Origin: Bacillota bacterium
GTDB taxonomy: Bacteria; Bacillota; Sulfobacillia; Sulfobacillales; Sulfobacillaceae
DNA: 64,000 bases
Reading direction: 5' to 3'
Assembly: GCA_023511625.1 (NCBI GenBank)
Contig: JAIMBD010000001.1
Coordinates: 124,001 to 188,000 of the forward strand
Part shown: piece by piece, positions 35,703 to 44,718 of the stretch
How positions within the stretch are numbered: the first letter of the stretch is position 1
Layout of the letters: each line of letters starts with the position of its first letter
The notes under the pieces: generated by a model
Told to the model about the DNA's origin: nothing
What the model saw: only the letters and a program-made list of their open reading frames with translations
The model's database searches: none
Translations under genes and position numbers: made by a program

Positions 35703-36059
35703 CGGTTCCTCCTTGCCGTTCTCGAACCGGCGACAGGGTCTTCTGGTTCCACTATACCAAAACCCTGTAGGCGGCTGCTGTTGGCGGAACATGCGGCGCT
35801 CGGCGTCCGAGTGGCGCAACAGCCGGGGCTTCCCCGCGCGGCGTCCTGCCGCCTCCGGCCTGCGGTGGACTGGCCATGGCGGGAGGACTGGGTTCGCGTG
35901 GCCGGTGTGGGGCCGTCACGCGCTAGACCCTCTAGACGTTGGCTATCGCGCCGGATGGCAAGGGGCTCCCGGTGGGGCGGGATCTCCCATGGGCATGCAG
36001 GGACGAAAGGCGCCTCCTTGTCGTGCGGCTCGCAGCCAGCCGTCCCCGGGGATCCAGCT
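35703..36059. other. Non-coding spacer
   Basis: About 357 bases between the MBL gene start and the HEPN gene end. The minus-strand sequence GAACCAGAAG...TATAGTGG near 35748-35760 may hold the MBL promoter (a TATAGT -10 like sequence). Open frames here have no recognisable content. I looked for a nucleotidyltransferase (MNT) antitoxin signature and saw none. Confidence 0.4.
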
Positions 36060-36509: not shown

Positions 36510-36692
36510 AACCTCACGCCTTCTTCCAAAATCCGGCGGGGGAAGGCGCTGGGCCCGACCCTTTTGCAGCACACTGGCCGGGATGACCACGGGGTCGATG
36601 GGCGCGAACCTGGCCGCCGAGGCGCCGGGGGAGGAAGGCGGTCAGCCTGGCTCCGGACTGGGGGCGGCTTGGCGCCCCGCTCGACGTCCCCG

Positions 36693-39600
36693 CTACCCGG
36701 TGGCGCGCGGCGCTGCCTGAGCCTCCTGCACGAACGCGCACAGCGCGTTGACCCCGGGCAGGGCCTCCGGCTGGGCGGGCAAGGCGTCGAGGAGCGCGGG
36801 GCTGCCGACCAGGACCGCGAGCCCCTGGGCGCGCGAGATCGCGACGTTGATGCGGTGGAGGTTGAAGAGGAACGCCTGGCCGTGGGGCAGGTGGTCGGGG
36901 TCGGAGGCGGTCAGCGAGTAGAGCACCACCGGCGCCTCCTGGCCCTGGAAGCGGTCGACGGTGCCGGCCTGCACCCCCTCGGGCAGGGCGGCCTGGAGCC
37001 GGTGGACCTGGGCGTTGAAGGGGGCGACCACCAGGATGTCGGCGGGCGCCAGCGCCCGTTCGCGGCCCGAGGCCTCGCGCCACCGGCACCGGAGCAGCTG
37101 ATCCACGATGGCGGCCACCGTCTCCACCTCCTCTGGTGCGGTGGTGCGGTGGCCTTGGTGCGGCACCTCCACCCACCGCAGCCCGGCCCCGCCCCAGGGG
37201 GCCGGCCCCAGGACCGTCTGCCGGCCGCAGTGCTCGGCGCTGCCGAGCCGCCCGCCGTAGGCGATGCGGCCGAGGTAGTCGGCGATGGCGGGGTGGCAGC
37301 GGCGCGTGACGGGGAGGAAGAGGCCGAGGTCGGGGGGCATGGTGGGCCGGCCGGCGAGGAGGTGGCCCAGGGCGGAGACGGCCACGCCGTCGGGGTGATG
37401 GGCCTGGACGGGGTGGGGGAGCTGCTGGGGGTCGCCGAGGAGGATCAGGTTGCGGGCCGCGCCGCCCACGGCGAGCGTGTCGGCCAGGGCGAACTGGCCC
37501 GCCTCGTCGACGACGAGGTAATCCAGCTGGCGGTCCCACTCCGCGCGGGCAAAGACCCAGGCGGTGCCGGCGACGAGCCGCGCCCCCTGCCGGAAGGCGC
37601 GCCAGCCAGCCTCCGAGCCGGTGACGACGGGGACGGGCTCGCCGGGCGCGGGCGCTTCGCTCCGCCCCCCGACCCGGACGCCGGGCAGGGGCTCCGGCCC
37701 CCAGGCGCCCTTGATGGCGGCCAGCAGGTTGCGGATGACGAGGTGGCTGGGGCCCGTGACGCCCACGGTGTGGCCCGCCCGCAGCAGGGCCGCGACGACC
37801 CGGCCGCCGAGGTAGGTCTTGCCGGTGCCGGGCGGCCCCTGCACGGCGAGGTAGCTCTGGTCGAGGCGCAAGGCCAGGGCGACGGCCTCCGCCACGGGGT
37901 CGCTACCGGGGGCCGGGAGCGCCGCGCCGTGGGCGAAGCGGGGCGGGGTGCGGGCCAGGAGCGCCGCGAGCGCCGGGTGGGCGCCGGGATCCGCGGCGAG
38001 GGCCAGGGCCACGCGGTGGACGGCGCGCTGCAGGGGCCGAGTGTCGACCGGCCCGCCCGCGATGAGGTGGAGGGGGTGGCTCTCGTGGTGGGCGGGGCGG
38101 CGCAGCACGAGCCGCCCGCGGCGGAGGTCGAGGGCCTGGAGAACGCCCGCCTCCCGGCCGGTCTCGGGGTCGACCACGGTGTCGCCCACGCGGATCTTGA
38201 CCTCCTGCTCGGCGGGGAAGGCGTAGGCGTCCGCGACGGCGCGGGAGCCGGCCGGCGCTCGTTCCAGGTGCTCCAAGTGGGCGATGGCCTCGGGGTCGTC
38301 CCACCACGCCTCCGGCGACCCTGCTCGCCGGCGGTAGAACGCCTGCCAGGCGACCCGGTCCTCCCGCCGGTGCCACCCGCAGCAGCGGGCGAGGAGGTCG
38401 GCCTGCGGGCCCCGGCCCACCGCCGCCGCGGCCGCGACCTCCTGGGCCGCCCGCTCCTGGGCCTCCACGGCCTCCGAGGGGGTCGGATCGAGGCGCGGCG
38501 GGCGCTCGGCGATCCCGGCTGCCGCCCGCAACCCCTCCAGCCAGGCGCGGCACTCGGCGGTGGAGCGGCAGTCGTCGGCGTTGTACCGGGCCAGCTCCGC
38601 TAGCAGCGCGTCGTCGCCGGTGGCCAGCCACCGGCGGTAGGCCGCCACGCTGGCGCCGCCCTTCTGGACGGCGGTGGTGCGGCCGGCGCCCCGGTAGCGG
38701 TGCTCCAGGGCCTCGATCGCGTACGACGCCTCGGAGACCTGCACCGCCTCGCGGACGACGCGGTAAAGGTCCACCAGGACCTCGCCCCGCAGGAGGCGGT
38801 CGACTGCGGCCTCGCGGGTGCCGTGGCGGCCGGCCAGGCGCTGCAGCGCGTCCACCGCGTCGTGGTTGTAGTCGTGGTTGTAATGGTAGACATGCATCCC
38901 CTGATGCTGCGTCCAGCGGGCCATCACCCAGTCGATGAACGCCGCAAACGCCACCTGCTCGCCCTCGGGGGTGTGGCCCCAGAGGCATCGGTACTGCCAG
39001 GCGCCGTCCTCGTCCCAGTAGCCCCAGCCCCACAGATACTCGCGCTGCCCACCCGCGGCCCAGGGGTCGCCCTCGAGGGCGAAGAAGACGTCGCCCGGGT
39101 CGGGCTCGGGGAGGCGCGCGAGGCCCCGGCCGGGGGCGGGGGGCAGGAGCTCCCAGCAGGGGGCGCCGGTCTCCCGCGCCCGGTGCTGGAGCCGGGCCTG
39201 GCGGACGAGGCGCTCTAGGGGCGCGGCCCCGATCCCGGGCACCGGCCGCGCCGGGTCCCAGGCGGCGAGGTCGGCCAGCGTGCGGACGCCGGCCTGTCGG
39301 AGCTTGCGGATCTGGTCGCGGCGGATGTCGGCCACCAGGCTCAGGTGGTCGGCCGCCCGGCGCTGGGCGTCGCACAGGGCCTGCCACCGGCACTCTCCGC
39401 AGGCGGCGATGCGGTCAGGGCAGGGGAGGGCGTCCGGGAGCGGGGCTGTGGCTGCGGCGAGGAGCCGCCGCCGGGCACGCTCCACGAAGGCGTCGGCGTG
39501 GGCCACGGGGAGCCGCTCCTCCGCCCCCGTGCCGAGGATGAGCGCCATGGACGCCGGCCGCCGTCCCTGGATCTTGTCCAGCAAGAGGCTGTCGAAGGCC

Positions 39601-40040
39601 GTCTGCGCCCAGGCCAGCACCCGTGGGTGGTGGGCGAGCGTCGCGTCCCAGACCTCGTAGTGCCAGGGGCCGAGGTCCGAAGCCCCCTCGACTCGCACCA
39701 GGAAGTCGGGCCGCCCGAACCAGGGCGGGTCGAGCAGGACGCCTTGGGCGATGACCGGCGCGCCCGCGCGCATCGCGGCGGCGGTGGCGGCGGCCTGGGC
39801 CGCGGGATCGCCATCGCCGGGGATCCGTGCCACGGCCCGCCCCTGGGCCTCGAACCGGGTGGCCGCGGCGGCCTCCTGGGTCCCCGCCAGGGCCTGGACC
39901 ATGGCCCGCTCGGTGTCGTCGCCTGCCGGCGGCCCAGCGATTCGTCCCGCCTCCGCCCACCGCACCCAGGCCAGGCGGTGCGGGCAGGCGAGGAAGTCGA
40001 CAAGGTCGGTAGCGGTCCACCATCGTGCAGACCCGGCCAT
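36693..40040 (-). CDS. TM0106-type RecB-like nuclease / Upf1-like helicase fusion
   Basis: A 1115-residue protein from the ATG at 40040 (after AAGGGGGG). Order: RecB-like nuclease region (about 1-200; GRPDFLVRVEG and YEVWDATLA), cysteines CGECRWQALC near 215, an RNase H-like region (about 310-500; FFALEGDP, DLYRVVREA, YNADDCRST), then an SF1 helicase with Walker A GPPGTGKT near 738, DEAG near 843, GDPQQLP, DRFQGQE and NVAISRAQG. TM0106-family proteins normally carry a D-x-K in the nuclease strand and FDIEGDP in the RNase H part; here the lysine position is threonine and the first aspartate is alanine, so the nucleases may be inactive. The gene is much richer in G+C than its neighbours. Confidence 0.85.
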   Translation of the reverse strand: MAGSARWWTATDLVDFLACPHRLAWVRWAEAGRIAGPPAGDDTERAMVQALAGTQEAAAATRFEAQGRAVARIPGDGDPAAQAAATAAAMRAGAPVIAQGVLLDPPWFGRPDFLVRVEGASDLGPWHYEVWDATLAHHPRVLAWAQTAFDSLLLDKIQGRRPASMALILGTGAEERLPVAHADAFVERARRRLLAAATAPLPDALPCPDRIAACGECRWQALCDAQRRAADHLSLVADIRRDQIRKLRQAGVRTLADLAAWDPARPVPGIGAAPLERLVRQARLQHRARETGAPCWELLPPAPGRGLARLPEPDPGDVFFALEGDPWAAGGQREYLWGWGYWDEDGAWQYRCLWGHTPEGEQVAFAAFIDWVMARWTQHQGMHVYHYNHDYNHDAVDALQRLAGRHGTREAAVDRLLRGEVLVDLYRVVREAVQVSEASYAIEALEHRYRGAGRTTAVQKGGASVAAYRRWLATGDDALLAELARYNADDCRSTAECRAWLEGLRAAAGIAERPPRLDPTPSEAVEAQERAAQEVAAAAAVGRGPQADLLARCCGWHRREDRVAWQAFYRRRAGSPEAWWDDPEAIAHLEHLERAPAGSRAVADAYAFPAEQEVKIRVGDTVVDPETGREAGVLQALDLRRGRLVLRRPAHHESHPLHLIAGGPVDTRPLQRAVHRVALALAADPGAHPALAALLARTPPRFAHGAALPAPGSDPVAEAVALALRLDQSYLAVQGPPGTGKTYLGGRVVAALLRAGHTVGVTGPSHLVIRNLLAAIKGAWGPEPLPGVRVGGRSEAPAPGEPVPVVTGSEAGWRAFRQGARLVAGTAWVFARAEWDRQLDYLVVDEAGQFALADTLAVGGAARNLILLGDPQQLPHPVQAHHPDGVAVSALGHLLAGRPTMPPDLGLFLPVTRRCHPAIADYLGRIAYGGRLGSAEHCGRQTVLGPAPWGGAGLRWVEVPHQGHRTTAPEEVETVAAIVDQLLRCRWREASGRERALAPADILVVAPFNAQVHRLQAALPEGVQAGTVDRFQGQEAPVVLYSLTASDPDHLPHGQAFLFNLHRINVAISRAQGLAVLVGSPALLDALPAQPEALPGVNALCAFVQEAQAAPRATG

Positions 40041-40859
40041 GGGAGGATCCCCCCTTGCCCTTCGCAACGGTTGCCAGGGCCAGGGATTCGACGCCGGGGC
40101 GGCGGATCCCTACCTCGGCGGGCGGGGCGTGCTCCACCCCATCAATCGCCATCCTTCGTGCCACGCCCTGCGAGTGGTGGCTCGGGAGCGTGAGCAGGAT
40201 TCCGAGGCGGATCACGAAATGGGCCGTCGAATCCGACAAAGCAGGGAAAGGGCGGCGACATGGGCGCCTGAGACAGGCGGGGGCCGGGCGCGGCGGGTGG
40301 GAGAGCGACGGGACTGCCTCTTTGCCGTCGTGGCCTTGCCCGATGGCCGCAAACTCGGCCTCCGCCGGTGCAGGCATTTTGGAAACCTTACGGTCCCTCT
40401 GGCTGCGATGGCCATGGACGCGTGGCCGGCCCTGGTATCAATGGGGGCACGTGCCCCCGCACGCCCAACGGGTGTGGGAAGGGCTGGGCATCCCCTGGTA
40501 TGTCCGCGGCGAACCCAGCTAAGCCACCCCCAAAAAATCCAGACAACCGGCGACTATAAGACGCGGAAGCCGAGTTCCTCCGTTCGGCCCCAAGACCTGC
40601 GCTAGGCTCCGTCTTGAACGGCGCCGTCGCGACCTGAAATTTTGGCCTCAGACCAAGTCAAAACCGCCTATCCCGCTCCCACGCCGTTCCCAGCCGTTCC
40701 GAGGCGCCCGCTCTGCCTCTTTGGGGATTCACCGCGATCGCGGTAATCTACGGAATCCCGACAAAATAGTAATAAATTCTGGTATGGCGGATTTGGTTTA
40801 TGATCCCTTATAATGCCGTTGCTTCGCCGAGCGATGGTTGCTTAGGAGGGAGGGAGAGC
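40041..40859. other. Non-coding spacer with palindromes and CocE-gene promoter region
   Basis: About 820 bases with no supported gene. A perfect 16-bp palindrome GGGGGCACGTGCCCCC lies at 40443-40458, and ACCGCGATCGCGGT (14 bp) at 40731-40744. The right end is A/T-rich (ACAAAATAGTAATAAATTC) and contains TATAAT at 40809-40814, 45 bases before the next gene; no convincing -35 box. Confidence 0.5.
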
Positions 40860-43272: not shown

Positions 43273-44718
43273 TTAACCCAAGATCATGAACCCATCGCCA
43301 GACGAACCAGACTGGCCCGGCGCGTAGAGCGCCGCCACATCGTAGACCAGGTTGGCCACGTTCGGCGGGCCGAAGCCGATCTGGGCTGTGAAGGGCGCGG
43401 GCCAGCCAAACGCCTGGTCGAGGAACGCCGGGAGCACCTCGGGGGCGGGGCCGGTGGCGTTGGCCACATGGTACAACACATCCGGCACGATGGCACCCTG
43501 CAGGTCCGCGCCATAGGTCTGGGCGTAGTGCGCCTGGACCAAGGCCCAGATGCCCGCCCAGCAGGGGGCGGCGAGGCTTGTGCCACCGCTGGGTTGGAGG
43601 ACGCCGTTGGCGACGATCGGCGCGTTCCATGCCAGGAAGCTCACGTCGGGTAGGTAGCGGTGAACCAGGCCGGGCACCAGGGCGTCGAGGGGCGAGCCCA
43701 AGAGGCCTAAACGGACCCATTCGTCGGCCTGCCACCGGGCCATGGGATAGTCCGAAAAGCCGTAGCCCCCGGCGTCCCAGGGGTATGGCACCCCTTGCCA
43801 CCAGACGTCCTGGCCGAGCGGCGTGATCATCGTGCCGCCCACGGCGACCATGTATTCATTGGCGGCAGGCCAATCCAAGCGGTCTTGTGTGCCTGCCAAG
43901 CCAAAATCGCCAGCGGCGGCAAATAGGCCGACCCCCGCCTTCGCCGCGCGTTCGATCTCGAGGTTGTCGGCGGGGGCGGTGAGATAGCCCTCAGCGCGGA
44001 ACCCCCTGGGATCGTAGTAGGAGAGAGAGAAGGCAGCGGCGCCAATCGCGGCGGCGTACCGCACGGCGTGGTTGTAGGCGTCCCCCGTGTAGGGGGCTTC
44101 ATACAGCACGAGGTGGGCTTGCGGCGCCATGGCGTGGACCCACTCCACATCCATGGTAGCCTCCAACTGCGCAGCCCCCACGATGCCGATCGGGCCGTCA
44201 GGCGCCACCGTCGCTGCAGAGACCGGCGGCAGGCCAAACAGCATATCGAACTGGGCCACATCCGACCAGAGGACATCGCTCGCCTCGTACAACACGATGG
44301 TCTGCCCCTGGCCAAAATCGCCCTGCTGGAACACTGGCAGCACGTGGTAGTGACGATAGACGAAGAAAGGGTCGAACAGACCCTGACCGGTGATCTGGCT
44401 GCGCACGACAGCATCGGGCGTCACGGCGAGGGCCGGCCCCGTCCACATCGACCGCAGTGGTCCTGCGCCGATGTCGGCCTCCAACGTGTACAGGCCGCCC
44501 GGCAGAGCCTGCGGGATCTGCAAGATGGCCGGGGTGGTGGTCGCCGACAACAGGGGATACATTGCACCGGTTTCGGCGGAGATGAGAAACCAGAACACGG
44601 AGGCGCCCGGCGGCGCGTTAGGCGCGGCCACCGTGATCGACTGCCCGGCCGACACCGTCCAGGCAGGTTCGGGCGTGGGCACCCCCTGAGCGGCGGCGGA
44701 GGCAGGCCAGGCGGCCAA
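43273..44718 (-). CDS. Sedolisin-type serine-carboxyl peptidase (S53), start uncertain
   Basis: A 481-residue exported S53-like protease from the TTG at 44718. The acid-type catalytic residues are visible: Glu and Asp in QLEATMDVEW near residue 186 and Ser in SGGTSLAAP near 379; the oxyanion aspartate may be in AAGDFG. The kumamolisin-like prodomain is very short or absent. The sequence upstream in the same frame encodes a clear signal-peptide core (RRFLTAVAAAAVLAAWP) but there is no start codon between it and a TGA at 44778; a GTG at 44774 in another frame hints at a missing base. Such proteases work at low pH outside the cell. Confidence 0.75.
   Translation of the reverse strand: MAAWPASAAAQGVPTPEPAWTVSAGQSITVAAPNAPPGASVFWFLISAETGAMYPLLSATTTPAILQIPQALPGGLYTLEADIGAGPLRSMWTGPALAVTPDAVVRSQITGQGLFDPFFVYRHYHVLPVFQQGDFGQGQTIVLYEASDVLWSDVAQFDMLFGLPPVSAATVAPDGPIGIVGAAQLEATMDVEWVHAMAPQAHLVLYEAPYTGDAYNHAVRYAAAIGAAAFSLSYYDPRGFRAEGYLTAPADNLEIERAAKAGVGLFAAAGDFGLAGTQDRLDWPAANEYMVAVGGTMITPLGQDVWWQGVPYPWDAGGYGFSDYPMARWQADEWVRLGLLGSPLDALVPGLVHRYLPDVSFLAWNAPIVANGVLQPSGGTSLAAPCWAGIWALVQAHYAQTYGADLQGAIVPDVLYHVANATGPAPEVLPAFLDQAFGWPAPFTAQIGFGPPNVANLVYDVAALYAPGQSGSSGDGFMILG

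Follow-up and report, generated by a model that had tools for sequence, protein, structure and literature searches.

A probably nuclease-dead, Dna2-like protein of the TM0106 family in a member of the Sulfobacillales

In Dna2 and in Bad, an iron-staple RecB nuclease stands ahead of an SF1B helicase. In Dna2, a loop held up by the Fe-S staple turns the nuclease channel into a closed tunnel for the threading of ssDNA, and the catalytic Lys301, which is buttressed by the motif-IV Gln314, hydrogen-bonds the attacking water (PMC4716839). When the single mutations D277A in human DNA2 or D150A in Bad are introduced, cleavage is lost and the ATPase is kept, and the mutants display a processive 5'-3' unwinding that is otherwise masked by the nuclease (PMC5030094, PMC7430649). 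COG2251, which is the TIGR03491 family, has been assigned, among the RNase H-like proteins, to the clade of 3'-5' exonucleases, and its architecture combines tandem AAA domains with a PD-(D/E)XK-like domain (PMC3985635); the literature on TM0106 and TIGR03491 yielded nothing else relevant. The family is already known, and the new part of the present work is a variant that appears nuclease-dead, together with its comparative series. Nuclease folds without catalysis are also found in RecC and in other inactivated members of the RecB/AddB family. RecC, however, is a dead helicase as well, whereas the motor of the protein described here is intact in its motifs.

The window, i.e. the whole stretch of 64,000 nucleotides that was analysed, contains a gene for a TM0106-family (TIGR03491/COG2251) protein of 1,115 aa on the reverse strand (36693..40040). 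The reading frame is open from 36693 to 40067, but the likely start is the ATG at 40040, because the start of the protein of a congener aligns there, and residues are numbered from this ATG. The protein matches TIGR03491 with 244.6 bits, against a curated cut-off of 97.45, and gives Pfam matches to RNase_H_2 (PF13482, 57.9 vs 22 bits), AAA_11, AAA_12 and AAA_30. From the N-terminus, it consists of a RecB/Cas4-like iron-staple domain (about residues 6-226, 39363..40025), an RNase H-like domain (PF13482, about residues 312-506, 38523..39107) and an SF1B helicase core of the UPF1/Dna2 type (about residues 682-1111, 36708..37997), all on the reverse strand. The four cysteines of the iron staple, which span the nuclease domain (C19, C214, C217 and C223), are all present. 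In the helicase core, all the motifs are intact, among them GPPGTGKT (37815-37838), VVDEAGQ (37494-37514), LLGDPQQL (37419-37442), VDRFQGQE (36936-36959) and VAISRA (36828-36845), again on the reverse strand. The best Foldseek match of an AlphaFold2 model of the whole protein, built from eight sequences (mean pLDDT 74, pTM 0.58), was Dna2 (5ean), followed by IGHMBP2 and UPF1, although the matches listed mostly cover the helicase only. The main architectural difference from Dna2 and Bad is the RNase H-like domain, which lies between nuclease and helicase. The source genome has only one TM0106 copy, and the window gene was the only full-length relative in the wider sampling of the phylum.

While whole-domain match, architecture, Fe-S cysteines and helicase are those of the family, the catalytic residues are not: K134, Y150, D321 and E395 are replaced, in a family otherwise predicted to be nuclease-active. 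The sequence-only reading had pointed to the absence of the catalytic lysine and of the first acid of the RNase H-like site, and both observations were confirmed by the alignment with G001a, an 87%-identical protein from a congener of the same genus (genome G001). In the RecB-like domain, the window protein reads WDATLA at residues 131-136 (39633-39650), where G001a reads WDAKLA with no gaps; the catalytic Lys of the D-x-K motif is thus replaced by Thr (K134T, codon ACG, 39639..39641, reverse strand), while D132 and D112 are kept. In the RNase H-like domain, FFALEGDP at residues 319-326 (39063-39086) stands, in the same gapless register, against FFDLEGDP in G001a, so that the first catalytic Asp of D-x-E is lost (D321A, codon GCC, 39078..39080, reverse strand) and E323 is kept. 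An intact D-x-K or D-x-E shifted from these positions, which would have left the reading without ground, is absent; a shifted active site was ruled out by the gapless alignment to G001a and by 21 homologues from outside the order of the source bacterium.

The losses go beyond these two residues, and the initial observation, as far as it can be judged from the alignments, was right and larger than first reported. In the RecB-like site, the Tyr of the Q-x3-Y motif is also lost (Y150D, 39591..39593, reverse strand), with Q146 kept. In the RNase H-like domain, HYNHYE has become HYNHDYNHDA (38850..38885, reverse strand), where a short duplication inserting the four residues NHDY lies beside the replacements Y394D and E395A; in addition, the conserved YSIK motif carries K443E (38712..38714, reverse strand) and, two codons earlier, S441A. 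G001a is intact at every one of these sites. The only exception is the motif-I His of the RecB-like domain, which is Gln in both proteins, and must therefore have changed before their split; it is replaced also in some relatives from the order. According to this comparison, both active sites have lost residues on the own branch of the window gene since it separated from G001a.

The DEDD-type set of the PF13482 domain is left incomplete by D321A and E395A, with E323 and D490 kept, and we regard it as very probable that the RNase H-like site is inactive. The RecB-like D...D-x-K set is also incomplete, and this site too is probably inactive, but its death appears less certain: no more than Lys and Tyr have gone, and the two acids (D112, D132) and Q146 are still in place. 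Some PD-(D/E)XK enzymes tolerate a replaced Lys, and with these remaining residues weak cleavage would be possible. The claim that both nucleases are dead is therefore supported in that both sites are broken while the motor is intact, with more confidence for the RNase H-like than for the RecB-like domain. One might accordingly suppose that death is confined to the RNase H-like domain, and that the RecB-like domain still cuts, either with Thr standing in for Lys or using the metal in another mode. The retention of D112, D132, Q146 and all the Fe-S cysteines would agree with this, and a clade of relatives (G034/G039/G040) in which the RNase H-like site is lost and the RecB-like site is intact offers a precedent. 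We consider it rather improbable, however, considering that K134 and Y150, both invariant among 28 intact homologues, are lost together, that the motif-I His is missing as well, and that the corresponding Lys301 has the task, in Dna2, of positioning the attacking water (PMC4716839).

The losses are unevenly distributed over the protein. Sites were taken as invariant if conserved in at least 27 of the 28 intact homologues; the changes confined to the window branch affected 7 of the 52 invariant sites of the nuclease domains, none of the 74 of the helicase (Fisher p=0.0016) and one in the linker, while no change at such sites was found on the G001a branch only. The earlier statement that the helicase half keeps all its motifs was borne out. 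Within the nuclease domains, the changes fell on four of eight catalytic invariants and on 3 of the 44 others (p=0.007). When changes were polarised, the RNase H-like domain had 21 nonsynonymous changes on the window branch and 3 on its sister, with 11 synonymous ones on each (p=0.0096), whereas in the helicase the nonsynonymous changes (23 against 13) tracked the synonymous ratio (23 against 9), and the difference was not significant. Since the tests assume that sites are independent, and one pair of sequences was used, we read these statistics as moderate, not overwhelming, evidence for a loss of nuclease residues beyond chance.

Early decay of the gene, i.e. a recently acquired, unused gene drifting towards a pseudogene, with the nuclease residues lost first by chance, must also be considered. 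The gene is an isolated high-GC gene amid metabolic genes, frameshifts occur in some copies from the order (those in G038 and on contig 48 of G041), and the pairwise dN/dS between the window gene and G001a is about 0.2-0.33 across the domains. Because the interval is short and the helicase dN/dS is 0.33, early decay of the window copy remains conceivable, and retention of the motor is less sure here than in the relatives G008 and G016 discussed below. On the other hand, all 1,115 codons are open, the invariant residues changed only in the nucleases and linker, and dead homologues elsewhere persist with a helicase dN/dS of 0.14. On balance, decay appears unlikely, though it deserves more weight than continued RecB-like cleavage, and we think it quite likely that the motor is functional.

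A peculiarity of the gene is the type of its mutations, since A:T to C:G transversions account for six of the seven key nuclease changes. In the whole gene, as compared with G001a, A:T to C:G changes are in excess by 51:16; about 13-14 of them replace Glu by Ala, and most other regions compared with G001 show a weaker excess. Such a skew might suggest errors of assembly or base calling, in a stretch that is rich in GC and may have low coverage, and most of the key changes do fall in just this class. The A:T to C:G rate is, however, 21% at third codon positions and only 5.7% at positions 1-2 (p=0.0007); at positions 1-2 it is 3.2% in the helicase and reaches 9.1% in the RNase H-like domain, a difference that also speaks against decay; and no such change affects a helicase-invariant residue. 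Random base-call errors would strike all codon positions alike, whereas this distribution looks like selection acting on real mutations. As other genes of the source genome also look normal in comparison with G001, an artefact is very improbable.

The explanation we favour, a nuclease-dead protein with a retained motor, was also examined among relatives. Homologues from outside the order were intact at both sites in 21 of 21 cases (16 from plasmids, 9+7, and five from viral contigs), while in the order, together with one class-level relative, at least one nuclease site was lost in 8 of the 16 members sampled, a comparison with 0 of 21 that ignores relatedness. On a tree built from the helicase only, loss of the RecB-like site requires four changes, namely in the window gene, in G001b, in G008+G016 and in G035. 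The RNase H-like site is lost in the same four and in the G034/G039/G040 clade, the domain being mostly deleted in G035; this corresponds to five lineages if loss is irreversible, and to four changes if parsimony is allowed to restore the site. All eight nuclease-losing members retain the helicase residues and the four Fe-S cysteines. On the evidence of these alignments and of the tree, several lineages of the order have reached the same outcome independently of one another, with the residues of the motor and of the Fe-S staple untouched.

Between G008 and G016, in which both sites are dead, the dN/dS of the helicase is 0.14 at a dS of 1.1, which means that strong purifying selection has gone on maintaining the motor for a long time since the nucleases were lost. 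The corresponding values are 0.31 for the RecB-like and 0.19 for the RNase H-like domain, the latter to be compared with 0.04 in the active pair G029/G017; the inactive nuclease folds have thus also been kept by selection, to a lesser degree than the motor.

Some further copies are worth recording. G001 itself contains, alongside the intact G001a, which lies in a restriction island, a second TM0106 gene (G001b, L167:3066-6386), a 58% paralogue located beside metabolic genes, with both nuclease sites lost. The converse is seen on an IMG/VR contig (L138:3474-6848), where the four Fe-S cysteines have become S, A, R and A and the tested nuclease residues are all intact. In G038 (L015/L024) and on contig 48 of G041 (L023/L027), TM0106 is split between frames near the RNase H-like domain; these copies would be either frameshifted genes or assembly errors.

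The window gene occupies a high-GC segment (36600..40200, 72-80% GC, the flanks having about 60-71%) surrounded by metabolic genes (coding for an MBL-fold protein, an S15 peptidase, an enoyl-CoA hydratase and others), and neither a partner nuclease nor a defence gene was found among the window neighbours scanned. At the DNA level it is 88% identical to the G001a gene, against 67-79% for most of the other regions in which the two genomes were compared, and its flanks match those in G001 only over 55 bp. Vertical orthology with G001a is for these reasons unsupported, and horizontal acquisition of the window gene is indicated, with which the high GC of the segment is consistent. The matching 55-bp stretch (35837-35891 in the window, 86% identity) is found on the downstream side of the gene in either genome. 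Another candidate transferred gene, coding for a subtilase-like protease, is located at 43273-44718 and shows 85% DNA identity to G001, with about 67-71% in the adjacent compared regions.

Elsewhere, the gene context suggests a linkage of the TM0106 family to defence. The active G001a is found in a defence-like island with an NgoMIV-type restriction enzyme, a C5 methylase, an HhH-GPD glycosylase and an MZB-domain fragment. In 8 of the 16 plasmid loci (L080, L084, L085, L182, L183, L184, L189 and L190), a divergent gene for a WYL-domain protein, likely a family-specific regulator, lies just upstream of TM0106, and single plasmid loci are beside TIR, McrC plus an AAA ATPase, SIR2, HEPN or a ubiquitin-like operon. 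On a Phenylobacterium plasmid (L081:603-7336), a multiubiquitin/E2/ThiF-adenylyltransferase/DUF6527 operon is directly followed by TM0106. The dead TM0106 gene of G008 (L170:4442-10201) is convergent with a gene for a PLDc_2+ResIII/DEAD helicase protein of about 797 aa, beside a MazG-like gene; the gene order is repeated in G016 (L171:4567-10282), as judged by length and sequence start, the Pfam run having covered the G008 copy. The two proteins are a candidate functional pair. PADLOC has no model for the TM0106 family; its best matches were Mokosh MkoA/MkoC, through the C-terminal helicase alone, and, unlike in Mokosh, no MkoA/MkoB pair, no MkoC with a PLD domain and no PLD or kinase partner were present among the window neighbours scanned.

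Taken together, the protein belongs to TIGR03491 by descent and, on its residues, not as a predicted active nuclease. The reading we prefer, held with moderate confidence, is that of a naturally nuclease-dead Dna2-like helicase-nuclease, likely a nuclease-free translocase/helicase; the comparable forms of DNA2 and Bad were engineered. Since staple and motor are kept and the cleavage residues are lost, as in the mutants of those two enzymes, a nuclease-free 5'-3' activity is the best-founded expectation. We infer that the protein folds, threads and translocates without cleavage, and likewise its biological role: the RecB-like fold would survive as a ring or tunnel threading ssDNA ahead of the motor, as in Dna2, and the protein would be a processive ssDNA translocase/helicase of 5'-3' polarity, which would unwind or strip DNA without cutting it. 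The proposal of the sequence-only reading, a repurposed remodelling ATPase, agrees with dead nucleases and a kept motor; the remodelling role itself is unproven. The TM0106 family might act as an accessory factor against mobile elements, in which case loss of the nucleases could lower self-toxicity, or pass the cutting to a partner nuclease, for example the product of the PLD-ResIII gene adjoining the dead pair G008/G016. More tentatively, and with less confidence than we place in the loss itself, both nucleases may, in this one order, have been stripped repeatedly and adaptively from a defence-linked family, leaving an iron-staple ring and motor under selection with a function of their own.

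If so, these proteins would be a natural class of nuclease-free Dna2-like DNA translocases, which might clear or sense the replication intermediates of invaders, or feed ssDNA to a separate nuclease. With eight of 16 sampled members lacking one or both nucleases, the annotation as "RecB-like putative nuclease" would be wrong for a sizeable share of the family in the order. The long-distance motor of DNA2 and Bad, hidden by the nuclease, has been seen only through engineered mutations, and its natural purpose is unclear; repeated natural loss of the nucleases with a kept motor would make that purpose testable, through a pair of active and inactive proteins that are 87% identical.
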